A DNA stretch of 37,061 nt, taken from Thermodesulfobacteriota bacterium (GTDB lineage Bacteria > Desulfobacterota > BSN033 > WVXP01 > G020346125). Under the pieces are notes generated by a model that had not been told where the DNA came from, ran no database searches, and saw only the letters and a list, made by a program, of their open reading frames with translations. A program made the position numbers and the translations under genes. Below, one piece after another: positions 3,217-10,319 of this stretch. The number at the start of each line of letters is the position of its first letter. Positions within the stretch are counted from its first letter, which is position 1. The stretch covers positions 1 to 37,061 of the forward strand of contig JAQYWG010000007.1 in assembly GCA_030145085.1 (NCBI GenBank), in the 5' to 3' direction.

Positions 3217-4701
3217 ATGGATGAACTCCAACCCCTGATGGTTCAGAGGCTTCGCAAGGTTAATGAACTAAAGAAAGAGGGAACAAACCTGTTTCCCAAC
3301 GACTTCCGAGTGGAAAAAACGTGCGAGGATCTTGTGAACCGATTTGGCCAGGCAACCCCTGATGAGTTGAAAATGGTGAAGGAATCCTTTTCACTGGCCG
3401 GTCGGATCATGGCCATGAGGGACTTTGGTAAGGCGGCCTTCATACACATCCAGGACAGGAGGGGTAAGATTCAGGTCTATGTTCGAAGCGACAGGGTCGG
3501 AAAGAAATCTTTTGGTCTCTTTAAGAAAATGGATATCGGAGATTTCATGGGAATTACCGGGACCCTCTTTCGAACCAAAACAGATGAGTTGACCCTCGAT
3601 GCCGAAAGTATCCGGCTCTTGACAAAATCCATGAGACCCCTACCGGAGAAATGGCACGGGCTGAGGGATGTGGAAACCCGCTATCGGCAGCGATATCTGG
3701 ATCTCCTCGTGAATCCAAAGGTGAAGGAGATCTTCACCAAACGGACCAGGATTATCCAGCTGATCAGGCAGTTCCTTGACGCAAGGGACTTTCTCGAGGT
3801 CGAAACCCCCATGATGCAACCCATCCCGGGGGGAGCAACGGCCCGGCCCTTCAAGACTCATCACAATGCCCTGGATATGGACCTTTACCTCAGGGTGGCC
3901 CCTGAGCTTTATCTAAAACGCTTGGTTATCGGGGGGTTCGAACGGGTTTACGAGGTCAATCGGAACTTCAGGAACGAGGGGATCTCCACCCAGCACAATC
4001 CGGAATTTACCATGTTGGAACTCTACCAGAGCTATGCTACTTTCGAAGATCTGATGGCCCTTACCGAAGAGATGGTCTGCTTTATTGCTCAGAATGTCCT
4101 TGGCGGCCTGGCCCTCGAATATCAGGGGGGAAAAATAGACCTTTCTCCCCCCTGGAAGCGACTGACCGTCAAAGAAGCTATCCTTCAGTGGGGAAGGATC
4201 GATTCCAAAACCCTCCAGGACTACGACAAGGCGTTGAAATACGCCCAAGGGTTGGGGATTCCGCTGGAAAAAGGGATTCCCCCTGGGAAAATCATCACCG
4301 AGCTATTGGACGAAATCGTGGAACCGCACCTTATCCAACCCACGTTCGTCACCCATTATCCGACCGATGTCTCTCCCCTCTCTCGGAGAAATCAGGATCA
4401 TCCGGATCTGGTCGATCGCTTCGAACTTTATATAGCAGGAAAAGAGGTCGCCAACGGATTCTCCGAATTGAATGACCCCGTGGACCAGAGGGAACGGTTT
4501 ATCAAACAGTTGGAGCAGGGCAACGTTGGGGAAATGGAAGGTCACCGTTTAGACGAAGATTTCCTCCATGCCCTGGAATCTGGAATGCCACCCACTGCGG
4601 GCGAGGGGATAGGAATCGATCGCTTGGTGATGCTGTTGACCGATTCCCCTTCCATCCGGGAGGTAATTCTATTTCCCCTTTTGAAGCCTCAAAGGGAATA
4701 G
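3217..4701 (+). CDS. lysS: Lysyl-tRNA synthetase, class II
   Basis: 494 aa; OB-fold anticodon domain and class II motifs (RYRQRYLDLLVNP, FRNEGISTQHNPEFTMLELYQSYA, GEGIGIDRLVMLLTDSPSIREVILFPLLKP). Confidence 0.97.
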   Translation: MDELQPLMVQRLRKVNELKKEGTNLFPNDFRVEKTCEDLVNRFGQATPDELKMVKESFSLAGRIMAMRDFGKAAFIHIQDRRGKIQVYVRSDRVGKKSFGLFKKMDIGDFMGITGTLFRTKTDELTLDAESIRLLTKSMRPLPEKWHGLRDVETRYRQRYLDLLVNPKVKEIFTKRTRIIQLIRQFLDARDFLEVETPMMQPIPGGATARPFKTHHNALDMDLYLRVAPELYLKRLVIGGFERVYEVNRNFRNEGISTQHNPEFTMLELYQSYATFEDLMALTEEMVCFIAQNVLGGLALEYQGGKIDLSPPWKRLTVKEAILQWGRIDSKTLQDYDKALKYAQGLGIPLEKGIPPGKIITELLDEIVEPHLIQPTFVTHYPTDVSPLSRRNQDHPDLVDRFELYIAGKEVANGFSELNDPVDQRERFIKQLEQGNVGEMEGHRLDEDFLHALESGMPPTAGEGIGIDRLVMLLTDSPSIREVILFPLLKPQRE

Positions 4702-4743: not shown

Positions 4744-6009
4744 ATGCCGATGCCATACGAACTATTCATTGGCCTGAAATATTTGATGGCCAAGAGAAAA
4801 CAGTTCTTCATCTCGATTAATAGCATCATTTCTATTCTCGGGGTCGCTCTCGGAGTGACGGCCCTTATTATCGTACTGGCCGTAATGAACGGGTTTGAAA
4901 AGGATATCAAGGAGAAAATATTGGGCACCTATTCCCATGTCATCCTAATGAAACACGGGGACGAGGGAATTGCAAAGTATTCCGCTTTAATTGAACAGGT
5001 GAAGGGGTATGAGCGGGTCGTTTCGGCCTCCCCGTTCGTTTACAATCAGGTGATGCTCACATCGAAGGCCAACGTCTCTGGCGTCGTCATCAGGGGGATT
5101 GATCCCGATTCCGCGGTTGAGGTAACCAATATCGGCCGTGCCATCAAGGAGGGGTCCCTCAGTAAATTGAAGGCGCAAGGGGGAGCTGGAACCATCGCTG
5201 GGATCATCATCGGAAGGGAGTTGGCCAGACATCTGGGTACATTCCTCAATGAGCCCATCACCGTGATTTCACCTATGGGTACCATAACGCCCATGGGGAT
5301 GGTTCCCCGAATGAAGCAGTTTAAGGTCGTGGGAATCTTCAACGTGGGAATGTACGAATACGATTCCTCCCTGGCGTATATCTCCCTCAAGGAGGCACAA
5401 CGGTTCTTCGACATGGGAAATGCCGTTACGGGGATAGAGATAAAAGTGGACGACGTCTATAAAGCTAGGAAAGTGGCCAGGGTTATCCAAGAAAATCTCG
5501 GTTTTCCCTATTGGACCAAGGACTGGATGGAGATGAACAAGAATCTCTTTTCTGCATTGAGGCTGGAAAAGGTGATTATGTTTATCATCTTATTCCTCAT
5601 TGTCTTTGTGGCGGCCTTCAACATCGTGAGTACGCTGATCATGGTGGTAATGGAGAAGAACAGGGACATCGCCATCTTGAAATCCATGGGGGCGACGGCT
5701 CGGAGCATTATGAAGATCTTTATCATCGAAGGACTCATTATCGGTGCCGTCGGAACCATTCTGGGAGCCCTAACGGGCCTGCTGGTCGCCATCAATATGG
5801 AGACGATCGCTGGATATGTTGAAAAGATCCTGGGCTTCGAAGTCTTTCCCAGAGATGTCTATTACCTCGAGCGTTTTCCATCCGAGCTGAATCCGGCTGA
5901 CGTGGTAATAATTGTTATCGTTGCGGTGATGTTATGTTTTTTGGCAACCCTCTATCCTTCTTGGAAGGCTTCGAGGCTGGACCCCGCGGAGGCCTTGCGC
6001 TATGAGTAA
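4744..6009 (+). CDS. lolC: Lipoprotein-releasing ABC transporter permease (LolC/LolE family)
   Basis: 421 aa; N-term 'ELFIGLKYLMAKRKQFFISINSIISILGVALGVTALIIVLAVMNGFEKDIKEKILG' and C-terminal FtsX-like permease; close to a LolD ATPase gene. Confidence 0.92.
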   Translation: MPMPYELFIGLKYLMAKRKQFFISINSIISILGVALGVTALIIVLAVMNGFEKDIKEKILGTYSHVILMKHGDEGIAKYSALIEQVKGYERVVSASPFVYNQVMLTSKANVSGVVIRGIDPDSAVEVTNIGRAIKEGSLSKLKAQGGAGTIAGIIIGRELARHLGTFLNEPITVISPMGTITPMGMVPRMKQFKVVGIFNVGMYEYDSSLAYISLKEAQRFFDMGNAVTGIEIKVDDVYKARKVARVIQENLGFPYWTKDWMEMNKNLFSALRLEKVIMFIILFLIVFVAAFNIVSTLIMVVMEKNRDIAILKSMGATARSIMKIFIIEGLIIGAVGTILGALTGLLVAINMETIAGYVEKILGFEVFPRDVYYLERFPSELNPADVVIIVIVAVMLCFLATLYPSWKASRLDPAEALRYE

Positions 6010-7222
6010 AAGTCCTATGGCTTCCGAGAAGGCCCTCATAAAAAGCCGAGCACAGAAATATCTCTCCAAGAGAAATTACAAAAAGGCCTTGGGGGAATTT
6101 CAAAGAATTACCAAACTGGACCCGATGGACCTCAGGTCCCGTCTGAGAGTAGGTGACCTGCTACAAAAGCTGGGAAGGGCCGGTGAGGCCGTTGCCCAAT
6201 ACAAGCAACTCACCCGTCACTATGCCAAGGAGGGTTTCCTCATCCAGGCAATCTCCTTAAACAAGATTATCCTCCGCATTGATCCTTCTCAAGAGGAAAT
6301 AGGTAAGGAGTTAGCCGATCTCTATGCCCAGATTGGTATCTCTTCCCAGATACCGGCCAAGGGACAAAAGGCCGAAAAGAAGCTTCCCGAAATCCCCCTC
6401 TTCTCCGAATTGAATCGGGATGAACTCCACCAAGTGGTAAGCCACCTCAAGGCTCAGCACGTGGCCAGGGGAAGTCTCGTCTGTAAAGAGGGGGATCCCG
6501 GGGATTCCATCTATATCATCAGCTCCGGGAAAGTGGGAGTCCTTAAATATTCCAAGAGTAAACAAGGGGACATCCTTTTGGCCACCCTACGGGAGGGGGA
6601 TTTTTTCGATGAGTTCGGTTTCTTTTCCGATCAGAAGAGGCATGCCACCGTCAAGGCCCTGGCCGATTTGGAGGTTCTGGAAATTTCAAGAAACGATTTC
6701 GACGAAATTGCTAAAGTTCATCCTCGGATGAGGAGTATCCTGCTTAACTTTTATAAGAAACGCATTATCGATACGCTCCTGGCCTTCGCTCCCCTCTTTA
6801 GGCATCTTCAACCGCAGGAGCGTGCCCAACTGGTTAGTCATTTCAAACCGAGGAGGGTTGGGGAAAACAGGTTAATATTCAATCAGGGCTCCCCACCCAC
6901 ATCCTTTTTCGTCATCAAAAGCGGGGAGGTAGAAGTCTTTGCCTCGAAAGGGGCCGAGCAGAGGGTTATTTTGGGCTGTCTCAGGGGAGGTGATTTCTTC
7001 GGGGAAATTTCGCTGATCTTCAACCGACCTCGAATGGCCAGCGTGAGGACCACCAAAACAACCGAACTGCTGGAATTGGAGAAGGCGGATTTCGATCATG
7101 TCGTGGCAGCATATCCCTCCATCAAGGGAACACTGGAGGTCTTTTCAAGGAAGAGATTGGAAGTAACGAGCCACATCATCTCCTCCTCCTGGACCAAGAA
7201 GGCAACGGCAACAATGGTTTAA
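6002..7222 (+). CDS. TPR-like N-terminal domain plus two tandem cyclic-nucleotide-binding (cNMP) domains
   Basis: 406 aa; TPR-like repeats (YLSKRNYKKALGEFQRITKLDPMDLRSRLRVGDLLQKLGRAGEAVAQYKQL); cNMP domain 1 (CKEGDPGDSIYIISSGKVGVL...EGDFFDEFGFFSDQKRHATV); cNMP domain 2 (FNQGSPPTSFFVIKSGEVEVF...GGDFFGEISLIFNRPRMASV). Start overlaps the lolC stop. Confidence 0.88.
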   Translation: MSKSPMASEKALIKSRAQKYLSKRNYKKALGEFQRITKLDPMDLRSRLRVGDLLQKLGRAGEAVAQYKQLTRHYAKEGFLIQAISLNKIILRIDPSQEEIGKELADLYAQIGISSQIPAKGQKAEKKLPEIPLFSELNRDELHQVVSHLKAQHVARGSLVCKEGDPGDSIYIISSGKVGVLKYSKSKQGDILLATLREGDFFDEFGFFSDQKRHATVKALADLEVLEISRNDFDEIAKVHPRMRSILLNFYKKRIIDTLLAFAPLFRHLQPQERAQLVSHFKPRRVGENRLIFNQGSPPTSFFVIKSGEVEVFASKGAEQRVILGCLRGGDFFGEISLIFNRPRMASVRTTKTTELLELEKADFDHVVAAYPSIKGTLEVFSRKRLEVTSHIISSSWTKKATATMV

Positions 7223-7234
7223 GGTGAAAACCCC

Positions 7235-7945
7235 ATGTGGAAAGAGGAAGAACCCTTGGAGGCGACTCATCCCTTAATCCTCGTAGAAAACCTCTTTAAA
7301 TCCTTTGGCCGTGCGCCAAAGAAGGTTGATGTCCTCAAGGATATCACGCTCACTTTTTCCACAGGTGAGGCGGTGGCCATCTATGGCTCATCAGGAGTGG
7401 GAAAGACTACCTTTATGCATATCCTCGGCACCCTCGATAGGCCCACGTCGGGGAGGATCATCTACCGCGGCCAAGACCTCTTTTCCATGGAAGAGAAGGC
7501 CCTTGCCGCATTTCGAAATCGAGAGGTGGGCTTCGTCTTTCAGCTCTATTATCTCCTGCCCGAATTCAACGCCCTGGAGAACACCATGATGCCCGCCTTA
7601 ATTCAGGGAATGCAGAGGAGGCAAGCCGCCGTGAAGGCCGAGGAAGTCCTCGTGGGGGTTGGCCTAAAGGACCGACTCACCCATAAACCTGGTGAACTCT
7701 CCGGAGGCGAACAACAGCGGGTAGCTGTGGCCCGCTCCCTCATACTGCAACCCACCCTGCTACTCGCCGATGAGCCCACGGGAAATTTAGACACCGCAAC
7801 GGGGCATGCCATTCACGATCTCCTCATGAGGTTGAATACCGAGAAGGGGGTGACCTTGATCGTGGTCACCCACAATCGTGAGATTGCCAGCCGAATGCGC
7901 AGAAGTCTTCAGATGATGGACGGAAAGGTCTTTGAGGAGGTTTAA
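7235..7945 (+). CDS. lolD: Lipoprotein-releasing ABC transporter ATP-binding protein
   Basis: 236 aa; Walker [10 protein letters not shown], signature [15 protein letters not shown], Walker [13 protein letters not shown], LolD-like '[14 protein letters not shown]'. Confidence 0.92.
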
Positions 7946-8064
7946 TGGAGACAACCTCGATTTTCCCTATTTACAAAGGATCATTTATTTGTTATGAAAG
8001 ACTACCCAAAACCGCTGCAGATTTAGATCTTGACGAGAACCTCTTTCCCAAGGAATCCATATGA
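7945..8064 (+). CDS. Small 39-aa ORF between lolD and bamA ([39 protein letters not shown])
   Basis: Hand translation. Start overlaps the lolD stop (TAATG), preceded by GAGGAGG; stop overlaps the bamA start (ATGA). Fills the whole lolD-bamA gap. Confidence 0.5.
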   Translation: METTSIFPIYKGSFICYERLPKTAADLDLDENLFPKESI

Positions 8065-10319
8065 CCCCGGCACTCAAGTTCGGTGGGAGAATAGTGGTTT
8101 ATATCCTGCTCTATCTCCTCCTATCCGGCCGGTGCTTTGGAGAAGACGAAAAGATCGTAAAAATCACCATACTAGGTAACGAGAAGGTCGCCGAGGACGT
8201 GATCAGAAACAACATTAAAAGCAAGGAAAACGAACCCCTCTCGATCCCGCAGGTCAGAAAGGATCTTAACTCCATCTATGAGATGGACTATTTTACCGAT
8301 GTCATCATCGATCTGAGGGATGTGGAAGGGGGCAAAGAGGTTATATTCATCGTTGTGGAAAAACCCTCCATCCGAAATATACTGATCTCGGGAAATGTGA
8401 AGATCGAAGCCTCCAAAATAAGGGAGAGGATCGATATTACCACCGGTGCCATTTTAAATATGGAGAAGCTCAAACAAGCCTCTGATAACATCAAAAAACT
8501 TTACTCTTCCAAGGCTTACTACCGGGCAGAGGTCGACTATCACCCGAACTACCTGGATGAAAACCAAGTCGATATCGAATTCATCATCAAAGAGGGGAAA
8601 AAAGGCTACATTAAGAAGGTCCGATTCCAGGGTAACGAGCATTTTTCGACGAGGAAACTCCGAAAATACATGAGGACAAAAAAGAAGGGATGGGTTGGGT
8701 GGTTAATGAAAAGGGGGATGCTGGATGAAGATATCCTCAATGCCGATATTCAAAGCCTCCAGGGTTTTTACTTCGATCACGGACACATCCAGGTTAAAAT
8801 CGACAAGCCCGAGATTACCATAACCAAGGATGGGAAATGGATTTACATCGACATCAAAATCCAAGAGGGGGAACGGTTTAGAGTGGGGGAGATCGACTTC
8901 AAGGGCGACATTCTAACCACACGGGAAGACCTGTTCAAAAAGTTACGCCTTAAAAAGGGCAAAGTCTATCGCAGCTCCGTAGTCCAGAAGGACATCCAGA
9001 GGATCACCAATTTCTATACGGACAGGGGATACGCCTACGCCGAAATTGTCCCCCTCACCTCCGTGGATTCGGAAATGAGGCTCGCCCACATCACCTTCGA
9101 TATCCACAAGGGGAAGAAAGTCTATTTCGAGCGAATCACCATTTCCGGAAATACAAAGACCCGGGATAAGGTAATCAGGAGGGAGCTCAAAGCGGGAGAA
9201 GGTGATCTGTACAGCTCAACAGCCATAAGAAAAGGTCGACGAAAGCTCAAGACCACCGGGTATTTTAAGGAGGCCGAATTTACCACCAGTAAGGGAACCC
9301 GTGATGACAAGATCAACTTGGATATTAGGGTAGAAGAAGCCCCAACAGGAGCCGTTAGCTTTGGGGCGGGATTTAGCACATTGGAAGGATTGTTGGGAAC
9401 GGTCACTATCTCCGAGCGAAACCTCTTTGGGTTCGGCTATAAAACCCATCTATCCGGTACGATGGGAGGCGAGAGTCAGCGATTTAAATTCGGTTTTACC
9501 GAGCCCTGGCTCCTGGGAACACCCACGAGCGCTGGGTTTGATGTCTATAAAGAGGAGTCGGAAATCTTCGATACATACAGCTCCGATGTTCTCGGAGCGG
9601 ACGTCCACCTGGGCAGAAACCTGACGGACTATATATCAGCCTCTCTTGTAGGCCGAGCCGAGAGGGTGAAGATCTTCGACGTCTCCCCTGATGCCTCCGA
9701 TCTCGTGAAGCAAGAGGAGGGAACCAAGGATACCCACAGCCTCACCCTGGTGTTGGCGAGGGATACGAGGAATGACTTTTACAACCCTACCAAGGGATCC
9801 AAACACACCTTCAGCCTGGAGAATGCGGGAGGGATTTTAGGGGGTGACAACACCTTCTACAAGGTTGTCGGCGATACCAATTGGTACTTCCCCCTGCCCT
9901 GGAACACGGTGCTCCATCTGCGGGGGAGAGCTGGCATCGTCGAGGGATACGATGAGAAAGTCGTTCCCATTTACGAACGATTTTACGTCGGCGGCATCAA
10001 TACGATACGGGGCTTCGAATATGGGGAGGCGGGACCCAAGGACGAAACCGGGGAGGTAATTGGGGGCGAGAAAATGGTTATCTTCAATTCGGAATTCATC
10101 TTTCCCTTGAGCAGGGCGCTCGGCTTGAGGGGCGCTATCTTCTACGATGGGGGGGGAGGCTGGGATGAAAAATTTGAAAGGTGGAGACACGCCGTGGGGG
10201 TAGGGATCCGCTGGTTCTCGCCTGTGGGTCCCATTCGAATCGACTGGGGATATAACCTCGACCCCCACGAGGGCGAGAGGCAGGGTGTTTGGGACTTCAC
10301 CGCAGGGGCTCAATTTTGA
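8061..10319 (+). CDS. bamA: Outer membrane protein assembly factor BamA
   Basis: 752 aa; signal peptide, repeated POTRA-like segments, C-terminal surface-antigen barrel (FYVGGINTIRGFEYGEAGP, GVGIRWFSPVGPIRIDWGYNLDP, final residue F). Confidence 0.96.
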   Translation: MTPALKFGGRIVVYILLYLLLSGRCFGEDEKIVKITILGNEKVAEDVIRNNIKSKENEPLSIPQVRKDLNSIYEMDYFTDVIIDLRDVEGGKEVIFIVVEKPSIRNILISGNVKIEASKIRERIDITTGAILNMEKLKQASDNIKKLYSSKAYYRAEVDYHPNYLDENQVDIEFIIKEGKKGYIKKVRFQGNEHFSTRKLRKYMRTKKKGWVGWLMKRGMLDEDILNADIQSLQGFYFDHGHIQVKIDKPEITITKDGKWIYIDIKIQEGERFRVGEIDFKGDILTTREDLFKKLRLKKGKVYRSSVVQKDIQRITNFYTDRGYAYAEIVPLTSVDSEMRLAHITFDIHKGKKVYFERITISGNTKTRDKVIRRELKAGEGDLYSSTAIRKGRRKLKTTGYFKEAEFTTSKGTRDDKINLDIRVEEAPTGAVSFGAGFSTLEGLLGTVTISERNLFGFGYKTHLSGTMGGESQRFKFGFTEPWLLGTPTSAGFDVYKEESEIFDTYSSDVLGADVHLGRNLTDYISASLVGRAERVKIFDVSPDASDLVKQEEGTKDTHSLTLVLARDTRNDFYNPTKGSKHTFSLENAGGILGGDNTFYKVVGDTNWYFPLPWNTVLHLRGRAGIVEGYDEKVVPIYERFYVGGINTIRGFEYGEAGPKDETGEVIGGEKMVIFNSEFIFPLSRALGLRGAIFYDGGGGWDEKFERWRHAVGVGIRWFSPVGPIRIDWGYNLDPHEGERQGVWDFTAGAQF

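Follow-up and report, generated by a model that had tools for sequence, protein, structure and literature searches.

TPRcN, a probable cyclic-nucleotide sensor with an N-terminal TPR domain and two CNBDs, is encoded in many bacteria of one phylum between the genes for the lipoprotein-release pump, a location which suggests that a second messenger may help to control the building of the outer membrane. The gene was analyzed in the window, the whole 37,061-nucleotide stretch of DNA under study, and in genomes of the same phylum. Our tentative preference is for TPRcN being a cytoplasmic cyclic-nucleotide adaptor, similar in layout to the PKA regulatory subunits, that is tied to lipoprotein release, most likely at the inner membrane.

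The TPRcN gene and its product

The gene, its neighbors and the domains of the encoded protein are located as follows.

4744 to 6009, + strand: lolC/E, the sole LolCE-type permease gene in the operon (TIGR02212 above cut-off)
6002 to 7222, + strand: TPRcN, the TPR-CNBD-CNBD gene (ORF from ATG to TAA, 406 amino acids; Pfam)
6017 to 6019, + strand: alternative TPRcN ATG (Met6), an ATG conserved in 4/4 genomes of the genus
6017 to 6334, + strand: TPR domain, residues 6 to 111, three helix pairs (AlphaFold2, SgmX N terminus, weak Pfam TPR)
6386 to 6742, + strand: CNBD 1, about residues 129 to 247 (Pfam PF00027)
6779 to 7135, + strand: CNBD 2, about residues 260 to 378 (Pfam PF00027, second stretch)
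7235 to 7945, + strand: lolD (best match TIGR02211, below the curated cut-off)

The preliminary description had the gene starting inside the lolC/E stop and ending 12 nt before lolD, and recomputation of the ORF and its junctions gave the same result: the first 8 nt of TPRcN overlap the end of lolC/E (ATGAGTAA), and a gap of 12 nt precedes the lolD ATG (7235). The codon at the overlapping position is ACG in two of the four genomes of the window's genus (L001 and L002), both of which keep the 6017 ATG. As the latter is present in all four, translation may start at 6017 rather than 6002. The overlapping ATG is present in 17/17 genomes of family f3, where it fits as a start, and the adjacency of lolC/E and TPRcN holds with either start codon. 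An ATGARTAR overlap was found at many lolC junctions, with or without TPRcN, and often arises from an Arg-Tyr-Glu-stop C terminus of LolC; hence, the 8-nt overlap alone is weak evidence.

Two stretches of TPRcN were matched by Pfam PF00027 (cNMP_binding; E 3.2e-43, 146.1 bits versus a gathering cut-off of 27.5 bits), and no further Pfam domain above cut-off was detected in the protein. Pfam TPR matches were weak and under the Pfam cut-offs. Residues 12 to 117 align with the TPR N terminus of SgmX (E 3.1e-14, about 105 residues), and AlphaFold2 placed three helix pairs at residues 5 to 110 with a pLDDT of mostly 70 to 90. The AlphaFold2 input was a three-sequence alignment, with which the CNBD models are unreliable, and the mean pLDDT of 43.9 reflects a model that is confident in the TPR part only. 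Pfam, the SgmX match and AlphaFold2 agree with the initial assignment of TPR-like repeats and two cNMP-type domains with no output domain. The top 19-residue hydropathy of 1.37 indicates that no membrane span is to be expected.

A CRP/FNR-type regulator was rejected, there being no HTH family in TPRcN and a CRP model score of 107 versus a cut-off of 266 bits. SgmX is a type IV pilus regulator of Myxococcus xanthus with 14 TPRs and no reported CNBD (PMC11580455); identity with this protein was rejected because TPRcN matches the N terminus alone (52.2 versus a cut-off of 1800 bits). A separate TPR protein of 300 to 350 amino acids (L013:155-1108, G000:C111) has the same N-terminal TPR domain as TPRcN; counterparts of this protein recur in many relatives.

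Linkage to the lol genes in Desulfobacterota

Two further genes belong to the conserved block, whose order in the window is lysS, lolC/E, TPRcN, lolD and bamA.

3217 to 4701, + strand: lysS, upstream in the block (Pfam and NCBIfam; order conserved)
8061 to 10319, + strand: bamA, downstream in the block (TIGR03303; order conserved)

LolC/E scored 460.7 with NCBIfam TIGR02212 (cut-off, 362.45), while LolD scored 270.7 with TIGR02211, which is under the cut-off of 307.75. Downstream of bamA are skp/ompH, lpxD, fabZ, lpxA, a UDP-GlcNAc 3-dehydrogenase-like gene, lpxB, msbA, kdtA and lpxK, and upstream of lysS are TetR, HlyD and RND genes. The dehydrogenase-like gene between lpxA and lpxB (window:13190-14167) suggests a diamino-type lipid A.

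Homologues were sought in relatives and, at a threshold of E 1e-40, in the phylum, of which 296 genomes were covered; a match at this level or better was present in 49 of the 296. Defining the phylum by a Desulfobulbaceae genome gave identical genome coordinates, which points to Desulfobacterota. A scan of genome contigs detected three full relatives, all from the window's genus. Positions were compared with those of lolC, and flanks were inspected, in the 57 phylum genomes having both a homologue and a readable junction. TPRcN was located directly after lolC in 52 of these, spread over 17 families: f1 and f3 contribute 21 genomes, with no exception among them, and another 31 come from the remaining families. 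lolD followed TPRcN directly in 49/49 loci not ending at a contig edge, the contig ending after TPRcN in three of the 52 genomes. The locus of G065 is split by contig ends and is consistent with lol placement, while TPRcN was found outside lol in five genomes (families f13, f25 and f33). Most phylum homologues are, therefore, lol-linked, the opposite of the mostly unlinked homologues that would have counted against the preliminary proposal, and the gene order in the window alone could not reveal how strong this linkage is. As the linkage recurs across the phylum survey, chance adjacency in one MAG was rejected. One genome, G072 (L105:3582-7796), has three tandem TPR-CNBD-CNBD genes before lolD and two lolC/E genes upstream.

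Outside the phylum, homologues were detected in 16/189 Myxococcota genomes at 1e-60, with no lolC or lolD beside them in flanks of about 1.5 kb, and in 1/199 Acidobacteriota genomes.

The main rival to a role in Lol function is operon rigidity, as simple vertical descent of an operon that rarely changes could also account for the linkage. lolC and lolD adjoin in 15 genomes without TPRcN, and the order lysS-lolC-lolD-bamA is kept also where TPRcN is absent, so that an inserted gene might persist there even if it had no functional connection. TPRcN would then be a genuine cyclic-nucleotide adaptor with its target elsewhere (e.g., polarity, surface appendages or kinase signaling), carried in an operon that is steadily expressed and rarely rearranged. 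We regard this as quite possible: the gene order of the block stays fixed whether or not TPRcN is there, the non-lol copies stand with signaling genes, the Myxococcota homologues found do not adjoin lol genes, and the TPR domain resembles that of the pilus regulator SgmX (PMC11580455). Occupation of the same slot in 17 families argues against it, as does the history of the gene. Presence of TPRcN requires nine changes on a tree of LolC plus LolD, in which weak branches are numerous. In the TPRcN tree with a Myxococcota outgroup, which has moderate support and two outgroup rows falling inside, the non-lol copies lie among the lol-linked ones. This nesting makes it probable that the lol slot is the ancestral one in the phylum and that some copies left it later; a mere passenger should have left more frequently.

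Within the genus, dN/dS values versus congeners were 0.23 to 0.24 for TPRcN, 0.17 to 0.24 for lolC and 0.20 to 0.25 for lolD; purifying selection on TPRcN is as strong as on its two neighbors. TPRcN is more divergent in sequence than LolC or LolD. A correlation between TPRcN and LolC distances (0.89) was rejected as evidence of interaction because it is mainly due to shared ancestry. The orthologue in G003, of the same genus (L003:6001-7147), is near-identical and is broken in CNBD 1 by an insertion of 1 nt and a deletion of 75 nt; unless this is a MAG error, the break argues against TPRcN being essential in that genome.

Phosphate-binding cassettes and the candidate ligand

Each CNBD contains a phosphate-binding cassette.

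6602 to 6652, + strand: cassette 1, FFDEFGFFSDQKRHATV (Glu204 and Arg213 kept; D203 at 6608-6610)
6995 to 7045, + strand: cassette 2, FFGEISLIFNRPRMASV (census of family sequences)

Both cassettes are present as originally quoted, and the window has the Glu and Arg of each (E204 and R213; E335 and R344). The description of cassette 1 as degenerate did not survive, as it comes down to a single residue, G203D, which is confined to the window (1/58 sequences). In a census of 58 sequences, cassette 1 had the Gly in 57, the Glu in 58 and the Arg in 57. For cassette 2, the corresponding figures were 57/57, 56/57 and 49/57, with the Arg replaced by His in family f12 and by Ala in family f10. This census led to rejection of domain-1 degeneracy as a family feature. 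The proposed division into one ligand-binding and one structural domain was likewise contradicted, since Gly, Glu and Arg are conserved across the family in both cassettes, and more strictly in domain 1. If either domain is the weaker, the residue counts suggest that it would be domain 2.

The copies outside lol offered a hint about the ligand. In two genomes (G032, L140:2810-9757; G070, L143:1495-8693), TPRcN lies directly behind a CHASE2-class III cyclase gene in an apparent cyclic-nucleotide cassette, which continues with genes for GAF-GAF-HD, CNBD and class II cNMP phosphodiesterase proteins. TPRcN is in one run with PP2C, FHA and CHASE2-cyclase genes in G044 and precedes a GAF-HD gene in G060 and G052. 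Of the three families with non-lol TPRcN, two have it together with a CHASE2-class III cyclase gene. The association of relocated copies with class III cyclases points to cAMP or cGMP, and this genomic context supports a cyclic nucleotide as the putative ligand of the TPRcN family. Three class III cyclases are encoded in the window's genome, including a CHASE2 cyclase whose gene adjoins a CNBD gene. Across genomes, co-occurrence of TPRcN with class III cyclases was not significant (35/38 versus 11/15; p 0.09, a comparison that is not tree-independent). Genome G005, of the same order as the window, gave 35 class III cyclase matches, and no TPRcN was found between its lolC and lolD.

Family f12 has TPRcN and GGDEF proteins, and no class I or class III cyclase was found in it. 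Together with the Arg-to-His replacement in cassette 2 of this family, the Ala in f10 and G203D in the window, this would fit CNBDs that no longer bind cyclic mononucleotides and instead mediate protein-protein contacts or recognize a different ligand, e.g., a cyclic dinucleotide. Retention of the cassette-1 Glu (58/58) and Arg (57/58) and of the cassette-2 Glu (56/57), and the placement of relocated copies alongside genes for class III cyclases and for a class II phosphodiesterase, make such a loss improbable.

Proposed role and comparison with known systems

In the adaptor model that we prefer, the N-terminal TPR domain would be a docking domain that holds a partner, and binding of cAMP or cGMP by the CNBDs would change what this domain holds. 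TPRcN, made from the lol operon, would act at the inner membrane on LolC/E-LolD or on a cooperating factor, and outer-membrane assembly would be tuned to the cyclic-nucleotide level via lipoprotein release. Lol is the first candidate for the partner because the gene sits between lolC and lolD; we only infer that it is the partner, and likewise the direction of control. A narrower version, in which TPRcN is a cyclic-nucleotide-gated accessory subunit of LolC/E-LolD that places lipoprotein traffic under direct second-messenger control in much of Desulfobacterota, appears doubtful.

In the literature searched, which covered few subscription journals, no cyclic-nucleotide-binding protein in a lol operon was described and no second-messenger control of LolCDE was found; we know of no such control. 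A receptor-like protein in the lol operon of 17 families makes second-messenger control of Lol directly testable. If the adaptor model is true, the PKA-R-like layout would serve envelope building in bacteria. Should the target not be Lol, TPRcN still represents a widespread and apparently undescribed family of putative cyclic-nucleotide effectors with defined genomic contexts.

NCBIfam TIGR03896 is the model for a CNBD protein that accompanies bacteriocin-type ABC exporters, and the CNBDs of TPRcN match it (E 9.5e-15). The score of 54.7 is far under the curated cut-off of 161.05, and identity was rejected on this basis; furthermore, the transporter is of another type and there is no TPR match. 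In Escherichia coli, lolC and lolD adjoin with the same 8-nt overlap as that between lolC/E and TPRcN, but no gene lies between them and there is a separate lolE.

As cited in PMC11139211, M. xanthus CbpB has been called a homologue of the PKA regulatory subunit that interacts with the kinase SpkA (Kimura 2009). The likeness to TPRcN, that of a bacterial PKA-R-like protein, is a functional parallel set by description and not by sequence. To our knowledge, CbpB has neither a lol link nor a TPR. By analogy with this precedent, TPRcN might hold a Ser/Thr kinase in check as long as no ligand is bound. In G003 (L172:174-5867), CHASE2-Ser/Thr kinase, PP2C and FHA genes, accompanied by TPR genes, are found upstream of lysS at a distance of up to about 9 kb, and the run in G044 combines TPRcN with PP2C, FHA and CHASE2-cyclase genes. 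In G001 (L173:2041-3738), a CHASE2 protein without a kinase domain is encoded a few kb upstream of lysS. We consider kinase restraint very unlikely, as the conserved block contains no kinase and the window has TetR, HlyD and RND genes upstream of lysS, with none of the CHASE2, kinase, PP2C or FHA genes of G003 and G001. Moreover, no RRx[AS]-like inhibitor or pseudosubstrate motif was seen, on reading the sequence, in the linker between the TPR domain and CNBD 1 (residues 112 to 128, GISSQIPAKGQKAEKKL).

The adaptor model draws a close parallel from the eukaryotic PKA regulatory subunits (5kbf and 3of1), to which TPRcN gave one continuous alignment over both CNBDs. Tandem CNBDs with Glu/Arg cassettes and no catalytic or DNA-binding output are common to both. 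The regulatory subunits have an N-terminal dimerization/docking domain where TPRcN has its TPR domain, and they are eukaryotic, whereas TPRcN is bacterial and is encoded in the lol operon.
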